In this document: piece after piece, positions 1,853 to 53,128 of the stretch
How positions within the stretch are numbered: position 1 is the first letter of the stretch
How the letters are laid out: every line of letters starts with the position of its first letter
Source of the DNA: Mesorhizobium sp.
GTDB taxonomy: Bacteria; Pseudomonadota; Alphaproteobacteria; Rhizobiales; Rhizobiaceae
Length of the DNA stretch: 64,000 nucleotides
Direction: 5' to 3'
NCBI GenBank assembly: GCA_004017535.1
Contig: SAJS01000019.1
Span: forward strand, 1-64,000
Translations under genes and position numbers: made by a program
The notes under the pieces: model-generated
The model's database searches: none
Told to the model about the DNA's origin: nothing
Seen by the model: only the letters and a program-made list of their open reading frames with translations

Positions 1853-2864
1853 TGACAACTCCTTTTTGCAAGTCGAGCCCTTCTCCACCTTCGGCCGCCG
1901 TCGACGCGAAGAAGTCCGCATCGCGCTGAAGACGAGCGCTGCGAAAAAGAGAAAGATGTGTTTGATGGCTGCGGCCCCAACGGTGCCTTCAGATTTGAGA
2001 TCACTTCCGCCGCGAGCGGCTGAAGCTCCTCGCAACGTCACAATCGAATCTGCTGCCAAGCCTCCAGGAAAGGAGAGCATTGCTCATCTCGCGCTTGTGC
2101 ATGCAGTCAACCCTCGATCCGTGTTGCCACATCTCAAGTGCAAATGCCGTGCCAAAGCTCACTGGGTAGTGAACGCATGGCTCTCCCTGAAAACCTCACA
2201 AATCCAGCATGGTCAATTGTGCGGAACCCGACATGCGTCTTCTGCCACTGTCAGCTTTCGGACAGGCATGACGCGTTTCGCGCCGACCACCGGTCGGTCG
2301 GTTTTGGGGCCGGTCTGTTCGCCTCATAAGAGCGCGTCACGTTGCGTAGCGGTTTCCCGAGCGCCGCCACATGACACTGGACCTGCAGGTAGCACCGGCT
2401 TCTCATCCAGCCTTGCTTTGGCCCCTTCGCGTATCAAATTCCCGCTGGCGAGCCCTGCTTTCATAGATCGCACCATGCAGGATGTCTGCTCTGGCGCCCG
2501 ACCCGCTGGCACGATCTCGATCCGGCATAAGGGCGCAGCATCTTTGCAGGCCGTTTCATCCCGGCGTCCTGCTTGGCTGAAAGACCGCACTTGGCGAGCG
2601 GTCTCCATGCTCTCTCCAAGGACCATCCCTGCGGCTGGCTTGTCGACCTATGGGCGGGTCCGGCCGCCCGAAACCCTCGCCATCAGCTTTTTTCCCCGCC
2701 GCCTGCGGCGGCTTCCTCGCGCCGCTTCGCTCACAAAAAAGCTGCCCGCTCGGATCCTTCGCTGTCGCTGCGGCCCTGTCGGATTCAGGCGGTCCTGACG
2801 CGCCCATTACGGTGCGCCATCGCAGGGGATGGTCCCCGGCGAAACCACAAAAGGAGACTTCGAA
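1853..2864. other. About 1 kb without a convincing gene
   Basis: Several frames stay open, one for over 900 bases on the plus strand, but their products are low-complexity (Ser, Arg, Pro) and match nothing I recognise, as expected of shadow frames in GC-rich DNA. The stretch holds a short hairpin at 2283-2297 (CCGACC-ACC-GGTCGG), a nested inverted repeat at 2685-2743, and at its right end the leader of the DUF736 gene. Confidence 0.5.
2685..2743. repeat. Nested inverted repeat upstream of the DUF736 gene
   Basis: Outer arms AGCTTTTTT (2685-2693) and AAAAAAGCT (2735-2743) enclose a second perfect hairpin, GCCGCC-TGC-GGCGGC (2698-2712). The structure could be a transcription terminator working in either direction, or a cruciform site used in element transfer. 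Only the symmetry is seen directly. Confidence 0.6.
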
Positions 2865-3188
2865 ATGACCGCGATCGGTTACGTCAACAAGCAGGAAAAC
2901 GGCGCCTACAAGGGCCAGCTCAAGACGCTCAGCGTCCGCGCTGACATCGATATCGTCCCCAACCAGGCCAAGAGCGCCGACAACCATCCCGACTTCCGGG
3001 TGCTTACGCAAGGGGTCGAAGTTGGCGCCGGCTGGATCCGCACCGGCGAGACTTCCGGCAAGGATTATGTGAGCCTGTCGATTGCAGCGCCGGAGTTCGG
3101 ACCGCGCAAGCTCTACGCCAATCTCGGCCGCGCCGCCGGCCAGGACGATCACGACACCTACGCCATCATCTGGAACCCGGCCGACTGA
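2865..3188 (+). CDS. DUF736 family protein
   Basis: A 107-residue soluble protein beginning MTAIGYVNKQENGAYKGQLK, with the DUF736 pattern of alternating strands. The ATG at 2865 follows the ribosome site AAAGGAGA. DUF736 genes are common on rhizobial and other alphaproteobacterial conjugative plasmids and ICEs, usually near the replication or transfer functions. Their biochemical role is not established. Here the gene lies just upstream of the excisionase and relaxase cluster, which marks the start of the element's processing block. Confidence 0.85.
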   Translation: MTAIGYVNKQENGAYKGQLKTLSVRADIDIVPNQAKSADNHPDFRVLTQGVEVGAGWIRTGETSGKDYVSLSIAAPEFGPRKLYANLGRAAGQDDHDTYAIIWNPAD

Positions 3189-3368
3189 CCGGGCGAGATA
3201 GAGCCTCGCGCCGCAGCCCCGGCGCGGGGCTCATTCCCAGGAGTTCCACCCAAACCCCGTCCGCCCTAAAGGGCGGCGAAAACTCTCCCCCGACTCTTCG
3301 CCCGTCCCCGAGACGATCTCCCTCGCCCATCCTCGCCCTCGCTTGTCCGAAGCGAAACGAGGATCATC

Positions 3369-3638
3369 ATGGACGACGAAAACGAACGCGCGGCCCGCGC
3401 GAAAAAGGGCAGCCCGTTTCTCAGCACAGCCCAAGCCGCCTTCTATATCGGGCTCTCCCAGCGCACGCTCGAAAAGATGCGGCTCAAGGGCGGCGGCCCG
3501 AAATTCCGCAAGCACGGCCGCTATGTCCGCTATCACATCGACGAACTCGACCATTGGTCGAAAGGACACCCGCAGCACTCCACCGCCGGCGATGGCAAGG
3601 CCGGTTCCGGCCAGGGCGGCACGGGAGGCCGTTCATGA
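3369..3638 (+). CDS. rdfS: RdfS-like excisionase (recombination directionality factor), winged helix
   Basis: An 89-residue DNA-binding protein of the MerR/Xis-type helix-turn-helix class. Residues about 18-60 carry the signature FLSTAQAAFYIGLSQRTLEK followed by a Gly-rich turn, FRKHGRYVRYH, and a DELDHW helix. The tail is Gly/Ser rich. In Mesorhizobium symbiosis ICEs the factor RdfS occupies exactly this place, first in a cluster with traF, a transglycosylase gene and the relaxase gene, and drives excision by the serine-tRNA or phe-tRNA integrase. The stop codon overlaps the traF start (ATGA), so it is translationally coupled. The name rests on context plus fold. Confidence 0.8.
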   Translation: MDDENERAARAKKGSPFLSTAQAAFYIGLSQRTLEKMRLKGGGPKFRKHGRYVRYHIDELDHWSKGHPQHSTAGDGKAGSGQGGTGGRS

Positions 3639-4183
3639 GGCGGCGCCCTTCCATCCATCTGATCGGCAGCCGCCTGAGGCGTGTTCGAGCCCGTAAGACG
3701 GTCGCCTTGGCCGCGGCCGGTCTCGGTCTTTTGGGCTTCACGGCGCTGGGAAAGCCCACCCCTTGGCTGGTCTGGAACGCCTCGGCCAGCGCGCCGATCG
3801 GCCTTTACCGCATCGCTGCGGGAGCGCTGGCGCGTGGCGATCTCGTGCTCGTGCGCCCGCCTGAATACGCGGCGTATCTCGCCGCCGAGCGCAGCTATCT
3901 GCCTCGCAATGTGCCGCTGGCAAAACGTCTTGCAGCGCTGCCGGACGATAATGTCTGCGCCTTCAATGACGCCATCATCATCGGCGGCGACATCGTCGCG
4001 CGCCGGCTCAAAATCGACGCCGAAGGCCGACCTTTGCCATGGTGGAACGGCTGCCGAGCGCTCGGGGATAACGAGGTTTTCCTGCTCGGCAGCGACAAAA
4101 ACCGCTCCTTCGACAGCCGCTATTTCGGGCCTGTTCCCACTCAAAATGTCATCGGGAGGCTCGTACCGCTATGGACCGAGTGA
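3635..4183 (+). CDS. traF: TraF-like conjugative transfer signal peptidase (S26 family)
   Basis: A 182-residue membrane-anchored serine protease, start ATG at 3635 overlapping the rdfS stop. One transmembrane helix lies at about residues 23-38. The S26 motif N-x-S-x-S-x-P-x-G-x-Y is seen at 48-58, with Ser52 the likely nucleophile. Lys97 in PLAKRL is the likely general base. The conserved GSDKNRSFDSRYFGPV box lies near residues 150-166. Family members such as TraF of RP4 process and cyclise the TrbC pilin. A trbC gene is present in this window at 26318, which is a likely substrate. It overlaps the next gene by 13 bases. Confidence 0.9.
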   Translation: MRRRPSIHLIGSRLRRVRARKTVALAAAGLGLLGFTALGKPTPWLVWNASASAPIGLYRIAAGALARGDLVLVRPPEYAAYLAAERSYLPRNVPLAKRLAALPDDNVCAFNDAIIIGGDIVARRLKIDAEGRPLPWWNGCRALGDNEVFLLGSDKNRSFDSRYFGPVPTQNVIGRLVPLWTE

Positions 4184-5033: not shown

Positions 5034-7004
5034 ATGAAGGATGACGAGTTCAGGCCGAAGCTCGGCAAAATCGGGTCGCGCGGCTCGAAGGCAGGCAAAC
5101 GCTATGCCGGTCAAGTCCGGGCAGCCGTCAACCGAGCCGGCGGCCAGCCCCAGCCCGGCGGTCGCTTCACGGGCAGCCGGACAGGGCGCGGCGGGGCGGC
5201 TGCGGCGCTGCTGAAATCGCGCGACCGGTATGCCGCCTTCCGCCAGCGCCGGGTGATCGTCAAGGCGCGGATCGTCAAGCTCGCCGGCAAGGGCGCGGAC
5301 GGGGCGCGTGCCCATCTACGCTATCTTCAGCGCGACGGCGTCACCCGAGAAGGTGCGCCTGGCGAGCTCTACGGCGCCGACAGCGACCGCGTCGACGGCA
5401 AGGCGTTCATCGATCGCGCGGACGGCGACCGCCACCAATTCCGCTTCATCGTCGCTGCCGAAGACGGCATCGAGTATGAAGACCTGAAGGCGCTGACGCG
5501 GCGGCTCATGGCGCAGATGCAGGAAGACCTCGGCACGAAGCTCGACTGGGTCGCGGTTGATCATTTCAACACCGGCCACCCGCACAGCCACATCATCGTC
5601 CGAGGCAGGGACGACCGTGGCGAGAACCTGGTCATCGCGCGCGAATATATCTCATCTGGCATCCGCGAGCGGGCGGCCGAGCTGGTCAGCCTCGATCTCG
5701 GTCCGCGAACCGACCGCGAGATTGAGCTTCGCCTGCGCCGGGAAATGGAGCAGGAACGCTTCACCAGCATCGACCGTCGGCTGCTCAGCATGCGTGATGA
5801 TGACGGGCTGGTCTCGCCGGGCGGTCCCGACGCCATTCGCCAGACGCTGCACCAGGGACGGCTGCGCAAGCTCGAGCGGATGGGTCTGGCCGCGGAGGTC
5901 GGCGCTGGCTCCTGTCGCCTCGACGATGAGCTCGAAGCCACGCTGCGCCGCACCGGCGAACGCGGCGACATCATCAAGACCATGCACCGCGAACTGGCCG
6001 GCAAGGGGCTTGCACGCAGTGCCGCCGACTGGGTGATCCACGATCGAGCCGGCGAGCCCGTCCAGTCTCTCGTCGGTCGCGTTGTCGCGCGTGGACTGGC
6101 CGACGAGATCAATGACCGCCACTACATGATCGTCGACGCCGTCGACGGTAAGAGCCATTGGATCGACATCGGTAGAGGCGAGGCGATGGAAACGATGCCT
6201 AATGGCTGCATCGTGCGTGTCGCGCCAAGGAACACCGAGCCGAGGCGGGTCGATCGTACCATCGCCGAAATCGCCGCCGTGAATGGCGGCCGTTACGACG
6301 TCGATATCCACCTGAAGCATGACCCATCCGCCACCGAGAGCTTTGCGCGAACGCATGTGCGGCGGCTGGAGGCGATCCGCCGCGCGATCGGCGGCGTTGA
6401 GCGAGAGCCGAACGGCACCTGGCTCATCGCGCCGGACCATCTCGATCGCGTCGCGAATTATGAGGGCCAGCGGGCCAGGGCCGAGCCTGTCGTTGTCGAC
6501 AAGCTCTCCTCAATGGCGCTGGAGCGACAGGTCAGCTTCAACGGCGCCACCTGGCTCGACCGGGAGCTGGTTGCCGATAGACCCGAGCCTTTGCACGGAT
6601 CCGGCTTCGGCTGCGACGTGAGAGAGGCGCAAGCTCGCCGGCGGGAGTGGCTGATCGCGCAAGGCCTCGCGCATGAAGAACAGGATCGGATCGTCTATCG
6701 AGCCAACATGCTTTCGATCCTGCGCCAGCGAGAACTGAACCGTGTTGCTGGCCAACTGTCGGAGGAACTTGGCCTGCCCTATGCCGAAGCGCGATCCGGA
6801 GGACGAGTAGAGGGTACGCTCCGCCGCTCCGTCGAGCTTGCCAGCGGAAAATATGCCGTCGTTGAGAAGTCGCGCGAGTTCACGCTGGTGCCATGGCGGC
6901 CGGTGCTTGAGCGCCATGTGGGCAAGGAGGTCTCCGGTGTCGTGAGTGGGGAGGGGATTTCATGGACCGTCGGCCGGCAAAGGAGCGGACCTGGTGTTTC
7001 GTGA
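5034..7004 (+). CDS. rlxS: Relaxase / VirD2-like mobilisation nuclease (DUF3363), RlxS-type
   Basis: A 656-residue protein that nicks at oriT and pilots the strand into the recipient. The N terminus is very basic (Arg, Lys, Gly rich). The relaxase domain starts around residue 80 (ARAHLRYLQRDGV) and holds the metal-binding His motif HFNTGHPHSHIIVRG at about 178-192. The DUF3363 region fills the rest and ends in the family tail ISWTVGRQRSGPG, so the gene looks complete. Start ATG 5034 follows GGGAGG. It is the last gene of the processing block. A degenerate second copy of its 3' end lies at 10870-10980 beyond the AAA-subtilase pair, a sign of recombination at this spot. Confidence 0.93.
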   Translation: MKDDEFRPKLGKIGSRGSKAGKRYAGQVRAAVNRAGGQPQPGGRFTGSRTGRGGAAAALLKSRDRYAAFRQRRVIVKARIVKLAGKGADGARAHLRYLQRDGVTREGAPGELYGADSDRVDGKAFIDRADGDRHQFRFIVAAEDGIEYEDLKALTRRLMAQMQEDLGTKLDWVAVDHFNTGHPHSHIIVRGRDDRGENLVIAREYISSGIRERAAELVSLDLGPRTDREIELRLRREMEQERFTSIDRRLLSMRDDDGLVSPGGPDAIRQTLHQGRLRKLERMGLAAEVGAGSCRLDDELEATLRRTGERGDIIKTMHRELAGKGLARSAADWVIHDRAGEPVQSLVGRVVARGLADEINDRHYMIVDAVDGKSHWIDIGRGEAMETMPNGCIVRVAPRNTEPRRVDRTIAEIAAVNGGRYDVDIHLKHDPSATESFARTHVRRLEAIRRAIGGVEREPNGTWLIAPDHLDRVANYEGQRARAEPVVVDKLSSMALERQVSFNGATWLDRELVADRPEPLHGSGFGCDVREAQARRREWLIAQGLAHEEQDRIVYRANMLSILRQRELNRVAGQLSEELGLPYAEARSGGRVEGTLRRSVELASGKYAVVEKSREFTLVPWRPVLERHVGKEVSGVVSGEGISWTVGRQRSGPGVS

Positions 7005-7360: not shown

Positions 7361-8347
7361 ATGACCACGGCCCGCCATATCGTGACCCTGCTTAAAAGCC
7401 ACATTGCCGGCGACGAGGATCGTTTCCTCTCTATCGCGATGCAGCTTGCTGCGCATGAGGCACGTCAAGGCCATGGCAAGCTTGCTCAGGAGCTCAAGGA
7501 TCTGGTCGACGCAGCCAAGAGCAGGGACGCCCGGATTGCCAAGAGCAGTCGGCCGGTTCCCCTTTTTCAGCCAAAGGGCGAGCTCGCAGGGCTCCTGCAT
7601 GTGCGCTATCCGGACCTGCGACTGACCGACATGATTTTGCCGGACAGTCTGCGCTCGCGCCTGCACCGCGTGCTGGGAGAGCAGCGCCAACAAGCAAGCT
7701 TGCGCGAGCACGGGCTTGTTCCCCGTCGCAAACTGCTTCTGGTCGGCCCGCCAGGATCAGGCAAGACGATGACCGCATCGGCATTGGCCGGGGAGCTTCA
7801 TCTGCCCCTTTTCACGATCGTCCTCGATGGTTTGATCACCAAGTTCATGGGAGAGACTGCCGGAAAGCTGCGGCTTGTTTTTGATGCAATGCAGGCGACG
7901 CGGGGCGTCTACTTCTTTGACGAATTCGATGCCATCGGCGCGCGTCGAGGCGAACGCCAGGATGTTGGCGAGATTCGGCGCGTGCTGAATTCGTTTCTGC
8001 AGTTTCTCGAGCAAGACGACAGCCACAGCCTGATTATTGCGGCAACAAATCATCCCGAGCTGCTCGACAGAGCTTTGTTCCGCCGTTTCGACGATGTCAT
8101 CGAATACGCCGTGCCCGATCGGCCGATTATCGAGGCGCTGCTTCGGGCTCGACTCGACCGCTTCGACACCAGAGGGCTTGCCTGGAACGAGGCGATCTCT
8201 CAGGCAGAGAGACTGTCGCAGGCCGAGATCACCCGCGCGGCCGACGACGCTGCAAAAACCATCATATTGCGGGGGGGGAAGCGGATCACCTCGGAAGCGC
8301 TCATCGACGCTCTGAAGGAACGCCGGCAGGCTTCGCTGTCTGAGTAG
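7361..8347 (+). CDS. AAA+ ATPase paired with a subtilase
   Basis: A 328-residue AAA+ protein. The N-terminal 110 residues are helical. The ATPase domain has Walker A GPPGSGKT at 129-136, Walker B YFFDEFD near residues 184-190, a sensor-1 segment ending IIAATNHPELLD, and an arginine-finger-like FRRFDD. This is the FtsH/katanin-like core without its own protease or membrane part. An ATPase like this could unfold or present substrates to the subtilase gene 17 bases downstream, but that partnership is inferred from adjacency. ATPase-subtilase pairs are seen on mobile elements and are sometimes regarded as defence or competition modules. No function is proven for this one. Confidence 0.8.
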   Translation: MTTARHIVTLLKSHIAGDEDRFLSIAMQLAAHEARQGHGKLAQELKDLVDAAKSRDARIAKSSRPVPLFQPKGELAGLLHVRYPDLRLTDMILPDSLRSRLHRVLGEQRQQASLREHGLVPRRKLLLVGPPGSGKTMTASALAGELHLPLFTIVLDGLITKFMGETAGKLRLVFDAMQATRGVYFFDEFDAIGARRGERQDVGEIRRVLNSFLQFLEQDDSHSLIIAATNHPELLDRALFRRFDDVIEYAVPDRPIIEALLRARLDRFDTRGLAWNEAISQAERLSQAEITRAADDAAKTIILRGGKRITSEALIDALKERRQASLSE

Positions 8348-8364
8348 CGACAGCACAGATCATA

Positions 8365-10833
8365 ATGGCAGACGATTTTCCGCGCGACCGCGCCCATATC
8401 CACCTTCGCAACAACGGCATTCGGGAAGCCTATCGGCGGCCCAACCAACTTATACATGCACCGCCGCTGCCGGCGCGTGATCGGGCGTCGCATGCTGCGG
8501 CCTTGACGCAATCCATCGAACAAGCGGTCGAAAGTGCACGCCAGCAGATTGCGGCGCGTGACCCCCAGCTGTCGGTCGGCACGCCTGGCTTTTATCTCGA
8601 GATCGATCTGCCCATGTCCGGACGGGCGGCCCTCGACCAGTTGGCCGATCGTCGCCAGCACATGGAGCTGGTCGCCGTCCATGAGCCAACTCAACCCGGT
8701 GCTCCCATCACAGCGTCGGTGTTCCTGCCGCAAAGCGCGCAAGCCTATTATTTGCGGAAAGTCGAGGCGTATCGAGACGTTGACACTGACCGCGGCAGAC
8801 CGCGCAACGAGCCGCTCGTCTCCCGCATGGAGACAGTCAGGCTGGCGACTGCACGATCGTTGTTTACCGACCACGACGACCTCTTCCCCCAGGCCGCTGA
8901 CGAGCAGGTGTGGTGGGAAGTCTGGCTGCGCGAAGGTCGCCGCGAGAACTTCGAGCACATTGCCGAAGCCCTGAACATCACTTTGCGCACGCATGCGGTC
9001 AGGTTTCCGGAGCGGGTGGTCATGCTGGCACTCGCCAGCACGGCAATGCTCGACCGCATGATTGCGCACAGCGATGTCGTCGCCGAGCTGCGGCGCGCGA
9101 AGGATACGCCGTCCTTCTTCATGGGCCTTGGCGGCGCGGAGCAAAGGGACTGGAGCGACGAGCTTCTCGGGCGCGTCAGACCGCCTCAAACCGATATTGC
9201 GGTCTGCATTCTCGACAGCGGCGTGCGTCGCACCCACCCGTTGATCGAACCCGCACTTGCCGTTGAAGACTGGCACACCGTCAAACCGGCATGGGGCAGC
9301 GACGACACACCTGCGTGGAGCGGCCACGGGACGCGAATGGCAGGTGTCTGCCTGTACGGTGATCTGGTCCCGCTCCTGGTCGGAGGCGATCCAGTTCCAT
9401 TGCCCTTTCGGCTGGAGAGTGTTCGTATCCTTCCGCCAGAAGACGAGGCAAACGATCCAGAACTCTATGGCGCGATCACCGCGGAAGCGATCGCCCGCGC
9501 CGAGGTGCAGGCGCCGGAGCGCCGCCGCGCGATCGCAATGGCTGTGACAAGCGCCAGTCCGGCGCGTGGAAGGCCCACATCGTGGTCTGCCGCTATCGAC
9601 CAACTCTGTTTCGAAGAGGAACAGCGACGCTTGATCGTTCTCTCTGCCGGCAACATCGGCGATGACCTCATGCCGGCCGAGCATTTGACGCGCAACGATC
9701 TGGAAGCAGTCGATGATCCTTCTCAGGCCTGGAATGCGCTGACGGTCGGCGCTTTCACAGAAAAGGTCGATATCATTGACACCGACTTTGCGGGCTACGC
9801 TCCGATCGCGCCGGTCGGCGAGCTCTCGCCGCGCAGTCGCACTTCGGTCGTTTGGGACAGGCAGTGGCCGGTGAAGCCCGAGGTCGTCTTCGAAGGCGGC
9901 AATCTCGCCCATGACGGTGTGTTGCCTGGCGAGTCGATCGACGATCTGCAGATATTGACCACTTTCTATCGACCCGAACTGCGCCACTTCACCACCCTCG
10001 GAGATACGAGCGCGGCAACGGCCCATGCCGCACGGATGGCGGGACTAATTCTATCAGCGCGCCCCGAGCTGTGGCCTGAAACGGTTCGCGCCCTGATCGT
10101 CCACTCGGCCGAATGGACTCCGGCGATGCGCGCACGCATCGATGCGTGCAACGGAGCGAAGGGCGAGATCCAGGCGCTCGTGCGGCGCTATGGTTATGGC
10201 GTGCCAGATCTTGGGCGCGCGCTTCTGTCAACGGTGAACGACCTCACGCTTATCGTTGAAGATGAGCTTCAGCCTTTCCAGCGCGAGGGCGGCGCGGCTG
10301 CCAAAACGCGTGACATGAAGCTGCATCGCCTGCCTTGGCCGAAGGAGCAGCTCGCGGCGCTCGGCGCTGCCCAGGTCGAGCTCCGCGTCACGCTGTCCTA
10401 TTTCATCGAACCCAACCCCGGTGAACGCGGATGGACCCGCCGGCATCGTTACGCGTCCCATGGTCTTCGGTTCAGAGTAAAGTCAGCGACCGAGACAGTC
10501 GACGAATTCCGAGCCCGCATCAATCAGGCCGCTCGGGACGAGGAGGAAGGGGCGCCTGCTGGAGGCGGAGAAGAGTGGCTGCTCGGCACCTTCCGCGATC
10601 GCGGCTCGTTGCACGCCGATTTCTGGTCGGGCAGCGCCGCCGATCTCGCCGAGCGTGACGCGATCGGCGTGTTCCCGGTCGGGGGCTGGTGGAAGGAGAA
10701 GCCTTACCTGGAACGCGTCGACGCTCTGGCTCGGTACGCCCTGATTGTGACGATTCGGGCGCCTGGGGTCGATGTTGACATCTTCACACCCGTCGAAGCA
10801 GCCCTGACTGTCGAGACGTCGGTCGAGACCTGA
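8365..10833 (+). CDS. Subtilisin-like serine protease (S8), partner of the AAA ATPase
   Basis: An 822-residue cytosolic-looking protease: no signal peptide or membrane helix is seen. A 270-residue N-terminal region without recognisable motif precedes the S8 domain. The triad is intact: Asp284 (CILDSGV), His321 (SGHGTRM) and Ser549 (GDTSAATAHAA), with the oxyanion Asn in LSAGNIGDD. About 230 residues after the domain are beta-rich and unassigned. The absence of a secretion signal and the tight pairing with an AAA ATPase suggest an intracellular, regulated protease, perhaps triggered by infection or by incoming DNA. That role is inference. The gene sits between the true relaxase gene and a relaxase 3' relic. 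Confidence 0.85.
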   Translation: MADDFPRDRAHIHLRNNGIREAYRRPNQLIHAPPLPARDRASHAAALTQSIEQAVESARQQIAARDPQLSVGTPGFYLEIDLPMSGRAALDQLADRRQHMELVAVHEPTQPGAPITASVFLPQSAQAYYLRKVEAYRDVDTDRGRPRNEPLVSRMETVRLATARSLFTDHDDLFPQAADEQVWWEVWLREGRRENFEHIAEALNITLRTHAVRFPERVVMLALASTAMLDRMIAHSDVVAELRRAKDTPSFFMGLGGAEQRDWSDELLGRVRPPQTDIAVCILDSGVRRTHPLIEPALAVEDWHTVKPAWGSDDTPAWSGHGTRMAGVCLYGDLVPLLVGGDPVPLPFRLESVRILPPEDEANDPELYGAITAEAIARAEVQAPERRRAIAMAVTSASPARGRPTSWSAAIDQLCFEEEQRRLIVLSAGNIGDDLMPAEHLTRNDLEAVDDPSQAWNALTVGAFTEKVDIIDTDFAGYAPIAPVGELSPRSRTSVVWDRQWPVKPEVVFEGGNLAHDGVLPGESIDDLQILTTFYRPELRHFTTLGDTSAATAHAARMAGLILSARPELWPETVRALIVHSAEWTPAMRARIDACNGAKGEIQALVRRYGYGVPDLGRALLSTVNDLTLIVEDELQPFQREGGAAAKTRDMKLHRLPWPKEQLAALGAAQVELRVTLSYFIEPNPGERGWTRRHRYASHGLRFRVKSATETVDEFRARINQAARDEEEGAPAGGGEEWLLGTFRDRGSLHADFWSGSAADLAERDAIGVFPVGGWWKEKPYLERVDALARYALIVTIRAPGVDVDIFTPVEAALTVETSVET

Positions 10834-11047: not shown

Positions 11048-12607
11048 TTAGGCGGCCGAGACATCGCTTACCTGATCAACGGGCTCGCCGTATTTGCGCC
11101 TGTAAGCGGCAATGAAATCGTCGTCGCTACAGATGCAGCGGCCGCTGGAGTCCTTGGCCTTCGGATCGTGCAAGTGAGAGCCAAGGGGGCGCAGAAGATT
11201 CACCCGAGTGCTCGTCGTCGGGCTCATGGGAAACCCCGCACTATGTTTGACCAAATCCGCGGCAAGCATAATCCCGGCAAGCACCGACTGAAAGGCCATC
11301 GGAACGACAGTTCGAACGCGGCGACTTCCTTCGCTAAGCTGGAACACCAGACCGCCGCAGATAGCCTGCTGATAAAAGGAGCGCAGGGGCTGGCCGACAA
11401 ACGGGGCTAGCGGTTCAAACGGCACAGCCATCGCTGTAGCCACGCGAACTACAAAGTCGTTGGGAACTCCGGCATTGGTCTGCAGGAGCGTTTTCACCTG
11501 CTCGTGTGCTTCCGGTATTCCGAGTTCCTCGGCAATCAGCTGGTGCTCGTCCTTGGATTTTCCGGATGGCAGGTACATGCAACAAAGGCAAGCCTGGCCG
11601 TCATCGAAACCATGCCGGGAGATACCGAGATCGTGCTCCTGCGTCCAAGCGTTTGCGATCCATCGCGGCAGTGCACCTTGGACAGCCAGACGGTCGGCGG
11701 CGGTGTCAAGCGCCACACCCACTTGGTCGAAGACCCAATTGCCCCGGCGCGCAACATATTCTGCCCACGTCAGAGGGTGCGCCTCGACCTCAAGGCCAGT
11801 CGATCTAAGGGCGGTGGCTGCAAGAACCGCCTTGGACATACCAATCTCCGCCTGGCCGGCCAATGCGTAGCGCTGCAGGTTTGAGAGTTCGATCGCTTCG
11901 TGATCGATTACATGCAGACGACCCTTGAGATCGGGTTGTCTCGCTAGCGCCCAAAGCGAGCCATGGCCTATCGCACCGAGCCCAACGAGGTGGGTTTCGC
12001 CAAGGTCGACTGGAAAGTCGATCGGGCCAGCCTCCCCGGCTTTGGTCTTGTCGTAGCTGCATAGCGAGAGGTCGATGGTTTCGTCCAACTCGGCGCCGGT
12101 CAACTGGGCGGCGAAGATAGTTCGAAAGACGTTGGCGGCGCCGAAGCAACTGGCGGCGCCAGCTCCATAAGGCAGCAGACTTGGGCCAGAGCCCACCGGG
12201 TCCGTACGCGACAGCTTTGCCGCCCAACCGTCCGATCCCACGAAAAAGATCGGGCACCGGAGTGATGGGCGCGTTACCCCTGCAACGACGCAGACGGTGG
12301 CAGACTTGCCGGAACGCCGGATGCCGACTTTTGGATTGATCGACTTTGCCAAGCGCTCCAGCGCTTGGGCTTGAGAGCTCGCCGCGCTGTCCAGCGGGAG
12401 TATCGCCAGAACCGGGTAGAGCCTAGCGAGCAATCTCACCGCAAGATCTAATGTCGCCTGGCCTTCGGCGCAGGAAGCGGCCTGATGGTCGAAGGCGACT
12501 GCCACGACCTGCTTTTCAAGAGCTGCTTTGAAGTCTCCCAGATGAAAATCGGCCAGGACCTGAGATGCCGCCGTGGCGGCACGATCGATGAAGTTAGCGA
12601 ATGCCAT
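11048..12607 (-). CDS. E1-like (ThiF/HesA) Ubl-activating enzyme of a bacterial conjugation cassette
   Basis: A 519-residue enzyme expected to adenylate the C terminus of the Ubl encoded at 13706. Residues 1-200 form an N-terminal domain without clear motif. The Rossmann adenylation domain follows: GLGAIG at 209-214, an acidic residue in HVIDHEAIE near 235 and the NLQR motif at about 243-246. Cysteines cluster at CLCC (340-343) and again near the C terminus (CIC, about 491-493), suitable for a thioester site or for zinc binding. The start lies 3 bases after the JAB gene, so the four genes form one operon transcribed leftwards. The stop is 214 bases from the convergent subtilase gene. Confidence 0.85.
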   Translation of the reverse strand: MAFANFIDRAATAASQVLADFHLGDFKAALEKQVVAVAFDHQAASCAEGQATLDLAVRLLARLYPVLAILPLDSAASSQAQALERLAKSINPKVGIRRSGKSATVCVVAGVTRPSLRCPIFFVGSDGWAAKLSRTDPVGSGPSLLPYGAGAASCFGAANVFRTIFAAQLTGAELDETIDLSLCSYDKTKAGEAGPIDFPVDLGETHLVGLGAIGHGSLWALARQPDLKGRLHVIDHEAIELSNLQRYALAGQAEIGMSKAVLAATALRSTGLEVEAHPLTWAEYVARRGNWVFDQVGVALDTAADRLAVQGALPRWIANAWTQEHDLGISRHGFDDGQACLCCMYLPSGKSKDEHQLIAEELGIPEAHEQVKTLLQTNAGVPNDFVVRVATAMAVPFEPLAPFVGQPLRSFYQQAICGGLVFQLSEGSRRVRTVVPMAFQSVLAGIMLAADLVKHSAGFPMSPTTSTRVNLLRPLGSHLHDPKAKDSSGRCICSDDDFIAAYRRKYGEPVDQVSDVSAA

Positions 12608-12610
12608 TGT

Positions 12611-13099
12611 TCAACTCGATATCATGATCATTCGCGACAGTGCCGCGGGAGGGAGCGCATTCCATTTGGCCTTTTCGTCAAGCCGATAGGCGGCGACCCG
12701 AGCAAAATCGAAAGGCTCGCGGGCGAAATTCGGCACTACCAGCGACAGACACCCAACCGTGGTAGCAACCGCATAAGCGTCGTCCGTCGTCGAATGGTAG
12801 GCGCGGCCCGGATGGCTGTGAATCTGGGCCAAGAGTTTCAGGCCGCTTTTGTAGAGCCAGACATTGAGCCGGTGCAGTTCTTCGGCCGCAACGATCACGC
12901 AAACGCCATCGTTTGTCCGAATGTGACGCTGCGCCGGGATAACCGTCTCTGTTACGGCAAAGTGCCGGTCTTGCTGAACGCCGACCCAGAGCGCCATCCC
13001 CTCATTGCCTTCGCGACCAACTGAGCGCAGATGCCCATGCGTGGTCGAGATGCAGCCGCGCGGGAGAGTCACGATCGTTACATCTCTCAAACCAGTCAT
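12611..13099 (-). CDS. JAB/MPN (JAMM) metallopeptidase of the Ubl cassette
   Basis: A 162-residue protein of the deubiquitinase-like JAB family. The zinc motif is HSHPGRAYHSTTDD at 94-107 (His94, His96, Ser103, Asp106/107), with Glu33 in GNEGMALWVG as the likely catalytic acid. The spacing to Ser is one residue shorter than in eukaryotic JAMM proteins. It should trim the Ubl tail, remove Ubl from targets, or both. I chose the ATG at 13097-13099, which overlaps the upstream stop (ATGA). The longer frame beginning at 13249 lies inside the neighbouring gene. Confidence 0.85.
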   Translation of the reverse strand: MTGLRDVTIVTLPRGCISTTHGHLRSVGREGNEGMALWVGVQQDRHFAVTETVIPAQRHIRTNDGVCVIVAAEELHRLNVWLYKSGLKLLAQIHSHPGRAYHSTTDDAYAVATTVGCLSLVVPNFAREPFDFARVAAYRLDEKAKWNALPPAALSRMIMISS

Positions 13100-13713
13100 T
13101 CTTGTATCGCCTGAGGGGATACCACCATTCCTACGATTGCCGGTGGGAGTTGAATCTGCAACTGCTCTATAGGAATGATTCCGTACTTGATGATCTTGTC
13201 CAGGATGAAGGCCAAACAGCCTTCGCCAGAACCCCGATGAAGTAGCCATGGATCACCTGAATGGGCTGGATTGTCGTGGTATTCCCGGACGCCCGCCATG
13301 CACAGGAATGGTTCGTCCTCGGGACTGTTGGCCTGGATGAAGTCCGTCAGCGGCACGGCGTTCTGCTGGATGAGAGCTCCTATCATCTCCGGCGGCGTTC
13401 CGGGCAGCGGCGGACGTCTAAGCATTTTCAGGTATAGATCTTTCCGGGCAATCGGATGACGCGTAAACGGATCGACGAAGACCACGGACGGTGGTCTTAA
13501 GTCGTAGTCGGTGAAGTCGACCTCGCTCGCTGCGCTGATCACCCGTGGTTTTAACTTGAGGCTTGCGAAAATGAAGAAAGCGCGCGGAAAGGTCGCCTCG
13601 ATCAAGAAGCAGCCCTGAGCCCGATAGACATCAGCATATGGCCGGAACCGGCCGATCTCCCGATCAAACTTCGCTCGGGAGACCTCCGGATCCACACTTT
13701 GGGGTTTAGGCAC
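13096..13713 (-). CDS. CEHH-motif protein, possible E2-like carrier, of the Ubl cassette
   Basis: A 205-residue protein with the spaced residues Cys138, Glu144, His146 and His151 (CMAGVREYHDNPAH). This is the pattern of the predicted metal-binding CEHH family, known from bacterial gene neighbourhoods with Ubl, E1 and JAB genes. The part before it reads like an E2 fold: beta strands, then LRPPSVVFVDPFTRHP, which recalls the PP-x-V-x-F and HP signature upstream of the E2 active-site Cys, and a Trp at 156. Cys138 could therefore be the transfer cysteine. That E2 reading is my inference. It overlaps the Ubl gene by 8 bases and the JAB gene by 4. Confidence 0.75.
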   Translation of the reverse strand: MPKPQSVDPEVSRAKFDREIGRFRPYADVYRAQGCFLIEATFPRAFFIFASLKLKPRVISAASEVDFTDYDLRPPSVVFVDPFTRHPIARKDLYLKMLRRPPLPGTPPEMIGALIQQNAVPLTDFIQANSPEDEPFLCMAGVREYHDNPAHSGDPWLLHRGSGEGCLAFILDKIIKYGIIPIEQLQIQLPPAIVGMVVSPQAIQE

Positions 13714-14002
13714 CTGCGACGCCCGCCTTCAGGCTGAGGAACAGGGTCACAGTATTCGGGAAACCGAAATCGCCAAGCTTCTTGTCGACGTCGAGCAAGT
13801 TGCCGGCCTCATCCTTCAATTCCCAATTCTCGGCTGGTTGGGCGACATTCTGCGTGTTCTCAAGGGCTTTGGTACGAATGACGTGAAGCGGCTGGTTGGG
13901 ATTGGCTTCGACCTGCGTGGGCTGGCCGTTCACCACCATCGTGATCTCGATCTTGCCCGGCCCGCCGCCGTGATTATCGCCCTTACCCGAATCCTTCGAC
14001 AT
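13706..14002 (-). CDS. Ubiquitin-like protein (DUF2604-like), first gene of the cassette
   Basis: A 98-residue protein with a short Gly/Lys-rich lead and a beta-grasp pattern: IEITMVVNGQPTQVEANP (strands 1-2), a helix (LHVIRTKALENT), WELKDEAGNLLDVDKKLGDFGF, and a last strand VTLFLSL. The C terminus is AGVAGA, not Gly-Gly; loss of the final Ala would expose a Gly for activation. ATG at 14000-14002 has a strong ribosome site (AGGAGTAGGA). As first gene of the operon its promoter should lie in 14003-14217, where I could not pick a site. The DUF2604 name rests on fold pattern and neighbours. Confidence 0.8.
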   Translation of the reverse strand: MSKDSGKGDNHGGGPGKIEITMVVNGQPTQVEANPNQPLHVIRTKALENTQNVAQPAENWELKDEAGNLLDVDKKLGDFGFPNTVTLFLSLKAGVAGA

Positions 14003-18988: not shown

Positions 18989-21900
18989 GTGATCTGTGGA
19001 AGTGAGGCTAGCGTGCACCCGTACAAACTGGACATTCATCGTAGCAGCTTGGCTGCAGGTGCAGCACGCCGTACCGCACGAGCAAGCGGACAAGCCGGCC
19101 AAGCCGGTTTTGAGCAGCACTTGGGCGAATTGCAGGCGGCGGATGAGTTGATGAGTGCACCAGGCGAGGATGTCCTCGTCAATGGCTCGCATGGCAAAGG
19201 TGAGTTGAGACCAACGAAGAGGCAGAGGATCCAAAGCAATCTGCAGCATGCTGTCACTGAGCGGCAACCAGGTCAGGTTGGTGACTCAGGCGCTCGCGCG
19301 ATGATGCAACTCCCTGCCCATCAGGTGGGTACATCGGAACGGGAGGCGCAGCTCGCGATGCAGGGGGATGAGCACGAATACACCCCAGCGCCGCATCTCG
19401 ATGGGTCGATGCCCTCGACAGTGCAGCCGGATCGTCCAATTGTGGCCCCCGACGGTGCCGACAAGCGTCCTGTTTATTCCAACGATGCCACCGCCATCGA
19501 AGGGCTGAAGTCTGCACTCCTTGCGGGTAAAGCCAGGCCGGACACGGTCACTCGCAGCGCAAATTCTCTTTTCGGCTTTAGTCGTTGGCTCTTTCAAAAC
19601 AAAAAGCCAGGGTTTGCTGCTCGGCTTTACCATCCGTCGCTGAGCCAGGATCTCGAGGAGTACGAGAGTAGGGGTGGTTCCTCCACAGTGGCTGGCGCAC
19701 TGCGTCAACTGATGAAGCCGATAGGCGGAGCCGCCCCGATTGTGGGTCGCGCTGTCCTGAACCCCCATCCTGACGACGCCGCGCTCACTAGACATTTCAG
19801 ATCCGCGAGCGGCTACGCAACTGCTCTTAACCATTTCAGTCATTACCTACGTCAAAATGACAAGCTCGGGATTGCGGGCCGGATTTACGATGAATCGCTG
19901 GATAAAGATGTTGAGAGCTACAAGGCCGCCTCCTCTACTCGTGGAGCTCCGATCGAATCTGCACTGGTTTATATCCGCAAGCACCCGCCGCGCGTTATAC
20001 TCGGGAGTCATCTGGAAAACGCGGTCAGCATGGAGGCTCGTCCCCGTGGCGACGCTGCTCAGCATACCGCACCACAGCAGGGATTCGATTGGCCAGAGGA
20101 GCTCCTGCCGGTAGGTTATAAGGAGGGCACCGATCTACCATTGTCTCTCGCCCCAACCGCGCACCAACACCAAGCACCCGACTTTGGAGAGGCCGTCCCT
20201 CACTTGAACTGGCGCCACGGCGACCAGGGCGCCCCGGAGGGGCTGGTAGCTGCACGGGACAGGAGCAGCCCGCTGCCAAGCGAGGCGGTGCCACATAAAT
20301 CTGGACGGGGACTCGCTACGCAGCCCAGATTGTGGGCGGAGAAATCCGCCTCGCCAGAGCTCTTTCGACGGCGGGCGGAGCAGGCTCTGCCGGCGTCCGC
20401 CAGAGGTGTGGAGACATCCTCCGCGGTTGATGAAGCCGCCGCTCGCCAAGCTTTGGCTTGGTTGCAGCAGGAGATGGAGGGGATCGAACCGATGCAGGAT
20501 CCTCATAAGGTGGCTACACCGGAATCTGAGGCGCAGCTCGTCAGGCAGAGGGATGAACACGAATCCACCCCAGCACCGCATCCCGGAGGTGGTGGTTCGA
20601 TGTCCTCGACAGTGCAGCCGGATCGTCCAATTGTAGTCCCCAACGGTTCCGACAAGCGTCCTGTCTATTCCAACGATGCGACCGCTATCGAAGGGCTGAG
20701 GGCAGCATTCCACGCGGGTAAGGCCAGCGCGAACACGGTCACTTTCAATGTAAATTCTCTTTTCGGCTTTAGTCGGTGGCTCCTTCAAAACAACAAGCCA
20801 GGGTTTGCTGCTCGGCTTTACCATTCGTCGCTGGATCAGGATCTCAAGGAGTACGAGAGTACGGGTGGTTCCTCCACCGTGGCTGGCGCACTGCGTTACC
20901 TCAAGAAGTCGACAAGCGGAGCCCCGATTATGGGTCGCCCTCTCGTGATCCCCTATCCTGACGATGCCGAGCTCATTAGAGATTACAGAGCCGCTTCGAC
21001 CAAGGAGTACCTGGCAGCGCCTGCGACCGGACGGAATCCAGATACCGTGGGCGGCTATACAAATTTTCTTAGACATTTTAGCCAGTATCTGCGTCAAAAT
21101 AACAAGCCTGGGATTGCCGCTCGGATTCACGACAAATCGCTGGATAAAGATGTTGAGAGCTTCAAGGCTGTCTCCTATGGTAATAGACTAAGTATCGGTT
21201 CTGCATTGGCTCACCTCCGGGATATCCTGCCGCGCATTGTGCTCGGGCGCGAAACTGTCCTTGCTGCTCATCCGGCAGACGCAGTCACCAGGCGCGTTGG
21301 GGCCGCTGCTGAAGCTGGGCCAGCGGCACCGGCAAGAGCTCCCCAACCCGCCTCGCCAGCAACCGCTAAGCTGCCAGGCACCTACCGCGGCCTTCCACTG
21401 GTTGATGTGACCACACTGACGACCAGTTCCTCTGGGGCTCAGATCGGGGCGCTCGATCCGACAGCCCCGTCCAACGTTGCAACGGGGCGGGTGCTCGGCG
21501 CCGCCGAATGGCTGAGCGACGCCCATGTCCAGAGAGATTACAATTTGCTGGAGCGGCAACTGCAGGGGATCAATCCGGCGCTCGCTGCCCGGACTCGGCT
21601 GGTGGATCCTTCCGTATCCCATCTACTGCGACACACGTCGCCGCAAGACGCTCGAGGCATATTGCAGTCCATCTATAATCAAAACAACGCCACAGCCGAC
21701 TTCCTGTTCTTGCCAGTGAATAATGGCACGGCTACTAGCCCCGGCACCCATTGGTCGCTGCTGCTCGTTGATCGCCGCGACCCCGAAAGGCGGTTCGCCT
21801 ATCACTACGACTCCCTCCAGCGAGAGGGATATAACGACGTGCCTGCAAAACAGCTCGCAGGACTGCTGAATGCTACCTTGGCGCCAGCCCCCATGGCCAG

Positions 21901-22579
21901 ACAGACGAACCATTATGATTGCGGCGTATTTGTCCTGGAGGGCACGTGGGCGCTGGTTGAACGATTGGTGAAAGGGCAGCGGCCAGACCACGAGCCGCTG
22001 CCCCTCGACAACCTCGTTGCCGATCGGCAGGCGCTGCAAGACCGGCTAAGGAGGCGCTTGCCGCACGAGGAAGAGCCGCGGCAGCTGCTGGAGGATGAAC
22101 CCGCCTCCCCACCGATGATGGCATTCGAGCCAGGGGAACTGCGGCAACTGTTGGAAGACGAGCCTGACTCCCCACCAATGATGGCGTTCGAGTCAGGGGA
22201 ACTGCGGCAACTGTTGGAAGACGAGCCTGCCTCCCCACCAATGATGGCGTTCGAGTCAGGGGAACTGCGGCAACTGTTGGAGGACGAGCCTGCCTCCCCA
22301 CCAATGATGGCGTTCGAGCCAGGGGAACTGCGGCAGCTGTTGGAGGATGAACCCGCTTCCCCACCGATGATGGCGTTCGAGCCAGGGGAACTGCGGCAAC
22401 TGTTGGAAGACGAGCCTGCCTCCCCACCAATGATGGCGTTCGAGCCAGGGGAACTGCGGCAACTGTTGAATGATGAGCCTGCCTCCACTTGGGCACAAAT
22501 CAATTCGACCCCACATGCGCGAGCGGACGGTGTTCATCAGCCAGCCCAGGCGCCCTGGCTCCCTGAACGCAGAAGATAA
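18989..22579 (+). CDS. nopD: NopD/XopD-like Ulp1 (C48) SUMO-protease effector
   Basis: A protein of up to 1,196 residues. A basic KRQR cluster near residue 77 could be a nuclear localisation signal. Two long imperfect repeats (about 112-340 and 510-753) share RPVYSNDATAIEGL, LFGFSRWL and LDKDVES. The C48 domain spans about 830-1000 with His921 (THWSLLL), Asp941 (YHYDSL), Gln972 and Cys978 (NHYDCGVF), all intact. Six copies of a 21-residue acidic unit (RQLLEDEPASPPMMAFEPGEL) follow. Such proteins remove SUMO from plant targets. The tts box says type III secretion; a related Mesorhizobium protein is a type IV effector. The start is uncertain: GTG 18989, or GTG 19013 with a better ribosome site (AGTGAGG). 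Confidence 0.85.
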   Translation: MICGSEASVHPYKLDIHRSSLAAGAARRTARASGQAGQAGFEQHLGELQAADELMSAPGEDVLVNGSHGKGELRPTKRQRIQSNLQHAVTERQPGQVGDSGARAMMQLPAHQVGTSEREAQLAMQGDEHEYTPAPHLDGSMPSTVQPDRPIVAPDGADKRPVYSNDATAIEGLKSALLAGKARPDTVTRSANSLFGFSRWLFQNKKPGFAARLYHPSLSQDLEEYESRGGSSTVAGALRQLMKPIGGAAPIVGRAVLNPHPDDAALTRHFRSASGYATALNHFSHYLRQNDKLGIAGRIYDESLDKDVESYKAASSTRGAPIESALVYIRKHPPRVILGSHLENAVSMEARPRGDAAQHTAPQQGFDWPEELLPVGYKEGTDLPLSLAPTAHQHQAPDFGEAVPHLNWRHGDQGAPEGLVAARDRSSPLPSEAVPHKSGRGLATQPRLWAEKSASPELFRRRAEQALPASARGVETSSAVDEAAARQALAWLQQEMEGIEPMQDPHKVATPESEAQLVRQRDEHESTPAPHPGGGGSMSSTVQPDRPIVVPNGSDKRPVYSNDATAIEGLRAAFHAGKASANTVTFNVNSLFGFSRWLLQNNKPGFAARLYHSSLDQDLKEYESTGGSSTVAGALRYLKKSTSGAPIMGRPLVIPYPDDAELIRDYRAASTKEYLAAPATGRNPDTVGGYTNFLRHFSQYLRQNNKPGIAARIHDKSLDKDVESFKAVSYGNRLSIGSALAHLRDILPRIVLGRETVLAAHPADAVTRRVGAAAEAGPAAPARAPQPASPATAKLPGTYRGLPLVDVTTLTTSSSGAQIGALDPTAPSNVATGRVLGAAEWLSDAHVQRDYNLLERQLQGINPALAARTRLVDPSVSHLLRHTSPQDARGILQSIYNQNNATADFLFLPVNNGTATSPGTHWSLLLVDRRDPERRFAYHYDSLQREGYNDVPAKQLAGLLNATLAPAPMARQTNHYDCGVFVLEGTWALVERLVKGQRPDHEPLPLDNLVADRQALQDRLRRRLPHEEEPRQLLEDEPASPPMMAFEPGELRQLLEDEPDSPPMMAFESGELRQLLEDEPASPPMMAFESGELRQLLEDEPASPPMMAFEPGELRQLLEDEPASPPMMAFEPGELRQLLEDEPASPPMMAFEPGELRQLLNDEPASTWAQINSTPHARADGVHQPAQAPWLPERRR
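22079..22456 (+). repeat. Six 63-bp tandem repeats inside the Ulp1 effector gene
   Basis: Six in-frame copies of a 63-base unit beginning CGGCAGCTGCTGGA, with a partial seventh to about 22485. Copies differ by few bases, for example Ala/Asp and Pro/Ser changes. Copy number is likely to vary between strains. The repeats also hold frames open on the other strand, which are artefacts. Confidence 0.95.
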
Positions 22580-51288: not shown

Positions 51289-51624
51289 ATGCCACATGCT
51301 GGCCGTTTGCCTAGTTCGGAAGCCCTCGAGAGGCGTTGCTCGTCTTGGTATGGCGTCGCCCCTTTTTCCGATCCATCGGCCACGGAGCTAGAATGCTGTC
51401 TAGCTGTTGCCGCCTACTTGGTCATCCGGCATGGAGATGCCTATATACCGACCTTCGAAAGGCTGGAATACGAGGTCGAACAAATGCGGCGGAAGCTCGG
51501 AAATCGCGAGCGAGCGCAGCGCGTGCTGGCCACGCTCAACCTAAATGGCTCGGACAGCTGGAGCCGTGAGGTTGGTTCTCAAGGCCTGGATGGCGCCGCA
51601 ATCACATTCGCCCGGGCGGGGTAA
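51289..51624 (+). CDS. Hypothetical protein overlapping the integrase 3' end
   Basis: A 111-residue protein with ATELECCLAVAAYLVIRHGD near the middle and a charged helix (YEVEQMRRKLGNRERAQRVL). A related short segment lies at 34642. Its 3' end overlaps the convergent integrase gene by 23 bases. No function is known. The frame is also open from a TTG at 51280. Confidence 0.5.
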   Translation: MPHAGRLPSSEALERRCSSWYGVAPFSDPSATELECCLAVAAYLVIRHGDAYIPTFERLEYEVEQMRRKLGNRERAQRVLATLNLNGSDSWSREVGSQGLDGAAITFARAG

Positions 51625-52924
51625 AAGCGATTTTTTGAAGCCACTCGCGCTTTTGCGCTAACGAAGGTCCCGCGCCGTATTTGGGCCGGATCCATTTGTG
51701 GCCCATCAGAGAAGCAATTACCTTCTCCGGCGCCTCAACTGCCGTCAGCCGGTCCTCGAAAGTGTGTCGCAGGCTATAAAGACTATGCTCGGAAGTCGGC
51801 AGAAGTTCCTTGCTGGCGAGCACCTTGTTGACGAGCGCTGAAAGTGACGCGGCCTTGTCGCGATAACGAGGAAAGCCGTCCGGATGGAGCTTGATGGCTG
51901 CAAGTGCGCCGCCAACCAAGGGAATGTCACGGGCTGAATGACCGGTCTTCAAGCGACGGCCATTGGGGCGCACCCGCACATGCGGGATTTCTTGATCGAG
52001 GTGGATTGTTTCGGTGGTGAGGTTTGCCGCTTCAGAAAGCCTGAGTCCGGTATCGGCAATCACATAGATTAGATGGCGGGCTTCGTCATTGAGTCCGTCG
52101 AGCGCGCCTTCAGCGAGTATCTTCTCCTGAATGAACTCCGCTGTGAACGCAGCGCGTTGCCCGGGGACGGCGCCGGAAAGACGCAGGTTTCGAAAAACCG
52201 GCTCCAGCTTGAGCTGGTGAGTCAGATCGACGACGCGCAGCATTTTCGAAACATGGCCGATGTCCTTGTTGGCCGTACCGATATCAAGTCCATCCTCAAC
52301 GATCCGCTTTTGCCACCACTCGCGGAACGCGATTGCGTCGTCCCGAGTGAGGCTTGCGATCTCCTTGTCGCCAATGACTCCAACCAGATTGGCAACTGCG
52401 CGCTTTTTGGGGTTACGCCATTTCTTGATTTGGTTAGGCGACATGGTCAGCAAGTTCTGTTGCTCGATCGTCTCGAATTCCTTGATAAGACCGCTCAGGC
52501 GGACCGCTGGCCGCTTCTCCCCACCCATGACGGCCGAGACGTCCTGCGCGTCCTCGATCGATTTTTTGTCGAGGAGCAGCTTGATACGGGCCATGAGTTC
52601 GTCGAGCGGCCCCGCTGCTAGTTCCTCGTTAGAGCGATAGGCCAATCCAAATGACCGCGCGCGCTTCCTCGCGGCTTCGAAACGCAGCCCCGCCTCGGCG
52701 GATTGGCCTTCCCGCAGTCTACGCCAATACGCCTCCAGCCCCGCGCCGAGGCTTTGCACTGCATCTCGCGCCCGTACACCGCGGGGATCGTCAGCCACGG
52801 CGACGCCCGTGGAAATGCGTACTAGGCAGCGGCGATCAAACGCCGCGAATTCCTTCGGCACCCTGCGGACGAGATACCAGATGCCTTCACGTTTATGCGG
52901 CTTTGGCGCTGCGGAACGTCGCAT
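51602..52924 (-). CDS. intS: Tyrosine recombinase (ICE integrase, IntS-type)
   Basis: A 440-residue phage-type integrase. The catalytic domain fills about residues 250-430: Arg in TGLRLSEAANLT, HSLYSLRHTF (His and Arg), a second His in MGHK and the Tyr in RPKYGAGPS. The N-terminal 170 residues carry the arm/core-binding domains. It is read away from the tRNA-Ser gene whose 3' end is 115 bases upstream, the usual placement for tRNA-targeting integrases. With the RdfS-like factor at 3369 it should catalyse excision and insertion. Confidence 0.92.
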   Translation of the reverse strand: MRRSAAPKPHKREGIWYLVRRVPKEFAAFDRRCLVRISTGVAVADDPRGVRARDAVQSLGAGLEAYWRRLREGQSAEAGLRFEAARKRARSFGLAYRSNEELAAGPLDELMARIKLLLDKKSIEDAQDVSAVMGGEKRPAVRLSGLIKEFETIEQQNLLTMSPNQIKKWRNPKKRAVANLVGVIGDKEIASLTRDDAIAFREWWQKRIVEDGLDIGTANKDIGHVSKMLRVVDLTHQLKLEPVFRNLRLSGAVPGQRAAFTAEFIQEKILAEGALDGLNDEARHLIYVIADTGLRLSEAANLTTETIHLDQEIPHVRVRPNGRRLKTGHSARDIPLVGGALAAIKLHPDGFPRYRDKAASLSALVNKVLASKELLPTSEHSLYSLRHTFEDRLTAVEAPEKVIASLMGHKWIRPKYGAGPSLAQKREWLQKIAFTPPGRM

Positions 52925-53038
52925 TATCTTTCTCTAATGTTACACAGTTTGTTACACAGTCTAAGATAAGTTTCGCTTCGCGCTGGTCAAGCGCAACAAG
53001 GAAGCTTTTGAAAGGAAACGATTATTATGGAAGCTAAA

Positions 53039-53128
53039 TGGCGGAGAGGGAGGGATTCGAACCCCCGATACCCTTGCGAGTATGCCGCATTTCGAGTGCG
53101 GTGCATTCGACCACTCTGCCACCTCTCC
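53039..53128 (-). tRNA. tRNA-Ser (anticodon CGA)
   Basis: On the minus strand the sequence starts GGAGAGGTGGCAGAGTGGTC and ends CTCTCC-G-CCA, with the CCA encoded. The anticodon stem GCACTCGAAATGC gives CGA, and the long variable arm (CATACTCGCAAGGGTATCG) is typical of serine tRNAs. The T loop GGTTCGAATC is intact. Its 3' end faces the integrase, so the att core probably lies at 53039-53060 and the tRNA is restored by the element. Confidence 0.95.

Follow-up and report, generated by a model that had tools for sequence, protein, structure and literature searches.

The stretch of DNA considered here, 64,000 nt of the forward strand of contig SAJS01000019.1 from Mesorhizobium sp. (assembly GCA_004017535.1) and hereafter the window, carries a compact four-gene cassette whose products are a ubiquitin-like protein (Ubl), a protein with a CEHH motif, a JAB-type peptidase and an E1-type enzyme. 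The genes lie on the minus strand and are transcribed leftward, from 14002 to 11048 (Table 1), the first two overlapping by 8 bases and the second and third by 4, with a gap of 3 bases before the last. Pfam assigns one DUF2604 domain to the Ubl (5.9e-36), Metal_CEHH to the CEHH protein (2.8e-99), Prok-JAB to the peptidase (1.6e-6, in a scan of a longer 212-aa frame) and both Prok-E2_C (1.1e-76) and ThiF (8e-11) to the E1. An earlier note, made by a model from the letters alone, had described this tight operon with a DUF2604-like Ubl as its first gene; its coordinates, overlaps and gap are all exact, and the key residues it singled out, E33, H94, H96 and D106 in the peptidase and GLGAIG in the E1, were all found. 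Matches to all four genes, in the order Ubl, E2, JAB/deubiquitinase (DUB), E1, are present in 70 of 70 loci, and the cassette is therefore not a chance assembly. These loci comprise 66 from genome contigs, three plasmid regions and the window's own clip (L001), each retrieved by the CEHH protein (BilB, below) alone or by window DNA.

What kind of conjugation operon is it? The comparison with known Bil operons that the note had suggested, run against the sequences of the PDB, gave close orthologues for all four proteins, with chains named BilA to BilD (8tyx/8tyy/8tyz/8tz0) matching the products lengthwise. The Ubl is identical to 8tyx_A, 'Ubl(BilA)', at 88 of 98 residues (89.8%; E=5.7e-56), the CEHH protein to 8tyz_C, 'E2(BilB)', at 168 of 204 (82.4%; E=2.2e-110) and the peptidase to 8tyx_B, 'DUB(BilC) E33A Mutant', at 128 of 162 (79.0%; 3.1e-86), the engineered E33A being one of the differences, while the E1 is collinear with 8tyz_A, 'E1(BilD)', over residues 1-518 of 519 (E=0, 1048 bits). 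Further, the PADLOC BilC model matches the JAB protein (1.1e-16, again in the 212-aa frame) and the BilD model the E1 (9.8e-16). In the passages on Bil of a 2024 review (PMC11354881), the DUB is BilC, the catalytic cysteine of BilB is Cys138, within the motif C138/E144/H146/H151, and the E1 is BilD, which has an inactive and an active adenylation domain and Cys417. The BilB residues and C417 stand at the published numbers in the window proteins, and among 29 operons dereplicated from 68 (L001 and the broken copy L044 having been dropped beforehand) all of them are invariant, together with C340/C343/C491/C493 of BilD; E33 of the JAMM residues of BilC is the very residue mutated in the solved chain. 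It is thus very probable, from such orthology, that the four genes are a BilABCD operon, bacterial and ISG15-like and linked to phage defence, and the reading of a complete Ubl conjugation operon related to Bil was right. As a find the cassette is ordinary, closely orthologous to a defence operon whose structure has been solved, and not a new type.

The earlier note had concluded otherwise on this last point, taking the operon for a different type than Bil since JAB precedes E1 and a CEHH protein stands in place of a canonical E2. Neither reason survives, all four products matching BilA-D chains. Bil's own order is Ubl-E2-DUB-E1, BilC being the DUB and BilD the E1 in those passages of PMC11354881 and in PADLOC, and not Ubl, E2, E1, DUB as the note had it, so that a JAB gene before E1 is no mark of novelty; the CEHH protein is the Bil E2, because it matches the E2(BilB) chain and has the published BilB motif at the same residue numbers. 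Two other accounts of the E2 were considered and rejected: that it is fused to the E1, since the Pfam Prok-E2_C region (residues 38-166) falls in the N-terminal part reported as the inactive adenylation domain of BilD, and that it is missing or replaced, the CEHH protein being the E2. A CEHH-based type of Ubl conjugation distinct from Bil, to which the silence of two PADLOC models and Pfam names suggestive of a metal binder and an E2-E1 fusion lend something, has a very remote chance, given that the CEHH protein and the E1 have close orthologues in PDB chains bearing the names BilB and BilD and that the published BilB itself has the CEHH motif. There is next to no chance of a cofactor or sulfur-transfer pathway (ThiS/MoaD-like), which the note had named as one of the findings that would overturn its view: the E1 does match MoeB/ThiF models weakly (at best 8.8e-7, with 28.4 bits where the cut-off is 266), but a dedicated E2 and a DUB are present, all four proteins are Bil orthologues and, among those window frames that were scanned, no protein has a Pfam match naming a thiamine or molybdopterin gene.

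What weighs against a phage-defence Bil operon here is best set out together. We know of no phage test of the window operon; the PADLOC BilA and BilB models match no window protein at E<=1, which would be a property of the models rather than the lack of a defining trait; the strong tie to nodA considered below leaves room for a role in symbiosis; and the vicinity of bil showed no established defence system in five of eight contexts. The window BilA, moreover, has one Ubl domain, two being given in the Bil passages of PMC11354881; chain 8tyx_A, of 98 aa, also has one, so the number is not defining.

Where is bil found? The 66 contig loci are mostly from Mesorhizobium, Bradyrhizobium, Sinorhizobium/Ensifer and Rhizobium, with one from Aminobacter, two from Methylobacterium and one from a Sphingomonadales metagenome-assembled genome (MAG). 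One Mesorhizobium locus, in strain ORS3324 (L044, 9735-12434), is a broken bil operon with the frames of several genes interrupted. In Mesorhizobium, 59 of 146 genomes have PF14455 (the E2 gene) and 101 have NodA, and 57 of the 59 carriers have NodA (p=2e-10, by a Fisher test that, like all the nodA tests here, ignores phylogeny and shared elements and gives optimistic p-values). The 59 include short PF14455 fragments (G016, G089, G136), on whose exclusion 54 of 56 carriers have nodA, and once the 36 genomes that share one BilB type (those scoring 330-332 bits with PF14455) are set aside, nodA is present in 18 of 20 (p=1e-3). The figure for Bradyrhizobium is 19 of 20 carriers against a background of 117 of 213 (p=6e-5), where five of 25 genomes with weak fragments alone (E>1e-7) were left out and the 117 are the strong NodA genomes of 134 listed at E<=0.001. 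As a control, SMODS of cyclic-oligonucleotide-based antiphage signalling systems (CBASS) showed no association with nodA (34 of 44 carriers, 37 of which pass the family cut-off; p=0.11). The order-wide sample, with PF14455 in 5 and NodA in 13 of 397 genomes, is too thin for comparison.

Among 17 Mesorhizobium genomes of at most 5 contigs with a PF14455 match, NodA is on the same contig in 16, 18-813 kb away, the remaining one having no NodA, and in all five single-contig Bradyrhizobium genomes with full-length matches it is 156-520 kb away. With the E2 gene tracking nodA in both genera and the CBASS control not doing so, Bil is a recurrent cargo of rhizobial symbiosis elements. It is not confined to them. 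BilB at E<=1e-10 is found in 12 of 72,556 plasmids, all of Sinorhizobium, Rhizobium or Mesorhizobium. Four of them, each 192-199 kb long, come from Rhizobium, including R. etli p42a, the one of the four examined, which has nothing annotated as nod or nif within 12 kb of bil and which we take not to be the symbiotic plasmid. No BilB relative was found among 50,697 phage records at E<=1e-3. Given the link to nodA, a rhizobium converted by a nodulation element may acquire antiphage immunity along with it, a point that would bear on how well inoculants survive. As a separate observation, in nine genomes (G016, G089, G098, G243, G558, G579, G591, G608, G619) weak PF14455 matches cover only model positions ~124-174, the CEHH active-site part, and perhaps represent a different E2 family.

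The same enzymes could instead have been selected for symbiosis itself, with BilA attached to bacterial proteins in nodulation or bacteroid life. The nodA figures for both genera are what would then be expected, and in S. numidicum bil lies close to nifB, in M. sp. 131-3-5 to nodC/nodI/nodB/nolL; co-transfer on one element, however, accounts for the nodA association without any such role. For 21 representatives of the 70 loci, a scan reaching at most 300 bases upstream from bilA (the L062 stretch lying inside a longer BilA frame) gave no match to two patterns, the sigma-54 -24/-12 site and the NifA site, with nod and tts boxes outside the scan. Furthermore, bil is also present in Methylobacterium and the Sphingomonadales MAG (nod genes there being outside the search), in the nodA-less Mesorhizobium G104 and G111, and on p42a. 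All considered, a symbiotic role is unlikely.

The cassette has a further peculiarity in the history of its second gene. Between window-type and M. loti-type operons bilA, bilC and bilD have 91-94% nucleotide identity, whereas in 100-base windows identity is 68-74% over most of bilB and 82-89% around the catalytic core, with recovery in bilC. For the pair L002-L038 synonymous divergence (dS) is 0.79 [0.57-1.10] in bilB and 0.22 [0.17-0.26] in bilA, bilC and bilD together, the highest of 113 equal-length sliding blocks outside bilB reaching 0.27; for L002-L035 the figures are 0.73 and 0.17 and for the Bradyrhizobium pair L049-L063 they are 0.45 and 0.15, with 22 of the 40 amino-acid differences in codons 91-135. 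Other pairs lack the excess (L002-L046, dS 0.26 versus 0.25; L035-L038, 0.13 versus 0.16), which argues for replacement rather than a fast gene: as read from these comparisons, bilB is an allele replaced by recombination in some pairs of relatives. It is a frequent though not the sole unit of exchange, bilC being exchanged too in other pairs. In L042 the excess extends into bilC; in L029-L068 bilB and bilC alike have elevated dS (0.31 and 0.34, versus 0.12 in bilA and 0.07 in bilD); and in L002-L029 bilC is highest (0.67 versus 0.40-0.45).

Might an E2 that evolves faster, or under relaxed constraint, mimic gene replacement? Averaged over 133 pairs with BilD >80%, conservation of BilB does fall short of that of BilD (mean difference -0.07), as it would for such an E2, yet the excess is at synonymous sites, identity falls and recovers near the edges of bilB, the pairs L002-L046 and L035-L038 are free of the excess, and for L060-L061 it is BilB that is better conserved (92% versus 82%). 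The idea is quite improbable.

In a system whose operon has no E3 gene, the E2 may be part of target recognition, helping to set the target. The cases of bilC exchange lower the odds of this. Our overall proposal, a tentative one that we think has less than even odds, is that Bil recurrently travels on rhizobial symbiosis islands and plasmids and that bilB, sometimes with bilC, serves as a recombinationally exchanged specificity cassette, swapped much as a target-recognition subunit would be, the E2 choosing without an E3 the phage protein to be tagged. Any importance of the cassette would lie in its location on symbiosis elements and in its mode of evolution, bilB exchange, and the natural replacement of bilB among operons otherwise 91-94% identical offers matched pairs for asking whether the E2 sets the target. 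A literature search around, and not including, the main Bil papers found neither bilB exchange nor a link to nodA described before, which is no proof of absence.

By orthology to Bil, the enzymes would act in sequence. In 69 of 70 loci (the exception, L044, being broken) BilA has a GVAG tail, after which comes A in 46, G in 14, V in 7 and nothing in 2, and GVAG plus at most one residue is what a one-residue cap removed by BilC would look like. BilC would trim this last residue to expose the C-terminal Gly, BilD would adenylate BilA and hold it as a thioester on Cys417, and from there BilA would move to Cys138 of BilB, which would place it on target proteins, no E3 gene being seen in the operon. 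In phage-infected cells the targets would be virion parts such as the central tail fibre, leaving progeny tailless or non-infective, a mechanism of Bil that is reported at second hand in the relevant parts of PMC12948488 and PMC11364771. For this strain both the activity and the target are presumed from the Bil orthologues.

The nearest known system is that of 8tyx/8tyy/8tyz/8tz0, which shares all four proteins, the catalytic residues and a 98-aa single-Ubl BilA; window BilA-C differ from it by 10-21% of amino acids (one BilC difference being engineered), and the window copy is known from its sequence. The searches give chain names only; we take the proteins to be from Ensifer aridi, and the structures are reportedly those of Chambers et al. 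2024 in Nature. Bub and the E1-E2/JAB of type II CBASS presumably have E1/Ubl chemistry and a defence setting in common with Bil, and CBASS E1-E2 models of PADLOC match the window E1 weakly (at best 2e-5). The Bil of Collimonas OK412, work said to be by Hor et al. 2024, bears the same system name. It is the source of the tail-fibre mechanism in the parts of PMC11364771 concerned (the mechanism also in PMC12948488), and is likened here by name, not by sequence, with PADLOC's BilA and BilB models failing to match the window proteins. Bub, bacterial ubiquitination-like, is so named in a passage of PMC13373217. Much earlier, operon type 6c had been tabulated by Iyer, Burroughs and Aravind 2006 (section 14 and Table 1 of PMC1779556) for M. 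loti, R. etli, NGR234, R. palustris and Magnetospirillum; it consists of an E1 with an extra N-terminal domain, a JAB and a predicted metal-binding protein, all of which the window operon has. There the N-terminal part of the E1 was read as an E2 and the CEHH protein as metal-binding, the row leaving the Ubl unnamed, and later structures reassign these; bil was found in three of the hosts, M. loti, R. etli and NGR234 (on pNGR234a at 79-90% identity).

Around the operon the window has TraG/Trb-type conjugation genes, a DUF3363-domain protein that we take to be relaxase-like, FixG, a protein with a C48-peptidase domain and an integrase near a tRNA-Ser, and the element looks like a symbiosis integrative and conjugative element (ICE). 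The earlier note had said that such an ICE carries the cassette; the conjugation genes, FixG and the integrase near tRNA-Ser support this, while nodA and nifH of this draft genome are on other contigs, so that physical linkage to them in this strain would be presumed. The C48 (Ulp1) domain is in a 1196-aa protein at 18989-22579 (+) that has a repeated RQLLEDEPASPPMMAFE segment and that we presume to be NopD-like, a candidate host-directed de-SUMOylase on the same element as a bacterial ubiquitin-like system.

Table 1. The bil genes and other features of the window
Feature	Position	Strand	Details
bilA (single-domain ubiquitin-like protein)	13706..14002	-	98 aa; tail ...LSLKAGVAG, then A; DUF2604 and PDB 8tyx_A
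bilB (E2, CEHH motif)	13096..13713	-	205 aa, GTG start; Metal_CEHH and PDB 8tyz_C
bilC (JAB/JAMM peptidase, DUB)	12611..13099	-	162 aa; PDB 8tyx_B and PADLOC BilC
bilD (E1, two adenylation halves)	11048..12607	-	519 aa; PDB 8tyz_A and PADLOC BilD
ietA, AAA ATPase of the IetAS antiphage system (neighbour, outside Bil)	7361..8347	+	PADLOC IetA 3.8e-74
ietS, S8 peptidase of IetAS (neighbour, outside Bil)	8365..10833	+	PADLOC IetS 4.2e-27; Peptidase_S8 1e-60
TraG, TrbE/L/G/I-type conjugation genes, DUF3363-domain protein (likely transfer genes)	22753-34390 and 5034-7004	+	Pfam
Possible ICE end: tyrosine integrase 51602..52924 and tRNA-Ser(cga) 53039..53128	51602..53128	-	Phage_integrase 5.9e-9; ARAGORN

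Defence-type neighbours were seen in three of the eight contexts, and neighbour contexts as a whole favour defence without proving it. In the window an IetAS pair (7361-10833, +) converges on the Bil operon; of the NCBIfam models, IteA matches at 2.6e-60 but far under its cut-off (204.5 of 510 bits), and IteS is likewise under its own (30.7 of 900 bits). In a second context, nodA-less Mesorhizobium G104 (L071, 6982-13961), NsnA/B/C-type genes lie upstream of a divergent bil (47-60% identity), a single unidentified frame separating the two, and an integrase is nearby at 2637-3920; the third, p42a (L075, 11699-16729), has TIR-domain and caspase-family genes downstream of bil. Of other surroundings, a VapC toxin-antitoxin pair adjoins bil in pNGR234a, S. 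numidicum and pSS05631a, pNGR234a has a weak caspase match ~17 kb away, four neighbours scanned in Bradyrhizobium G595 comprise one integrase and three without a match, and in M. sp. 131-3-5 (L069, 30907-32973) a ThiF-family protein and a multiubiquitin protein, a second Ubl/E1 pair, lie ~8 kb from bil beside XRE/RES genes. A general Bil-IetAS partnership was considered and rejected: with flanks of at most ~10 kb, many of them clipped, 28 of 70 loci have the two Iet genes close to bil, every one of them in a closely similar Mesorhizobium group, to which L041 adds a weak IetS-only match (26%). For IetA carriers (E<=1e-60, only 12 candidates being scored per genome) nodA is present in 43 of 51 genus-wide (p=0.003) and, outside the 36-genome BilB group, in 12 of 20 (p=0.57), no tie. 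In three loci, L014, L021 and L043, IetA matches at only 66% and IetS at 99%, an ietA diverged or rearranged beside a nearly identical ietS.

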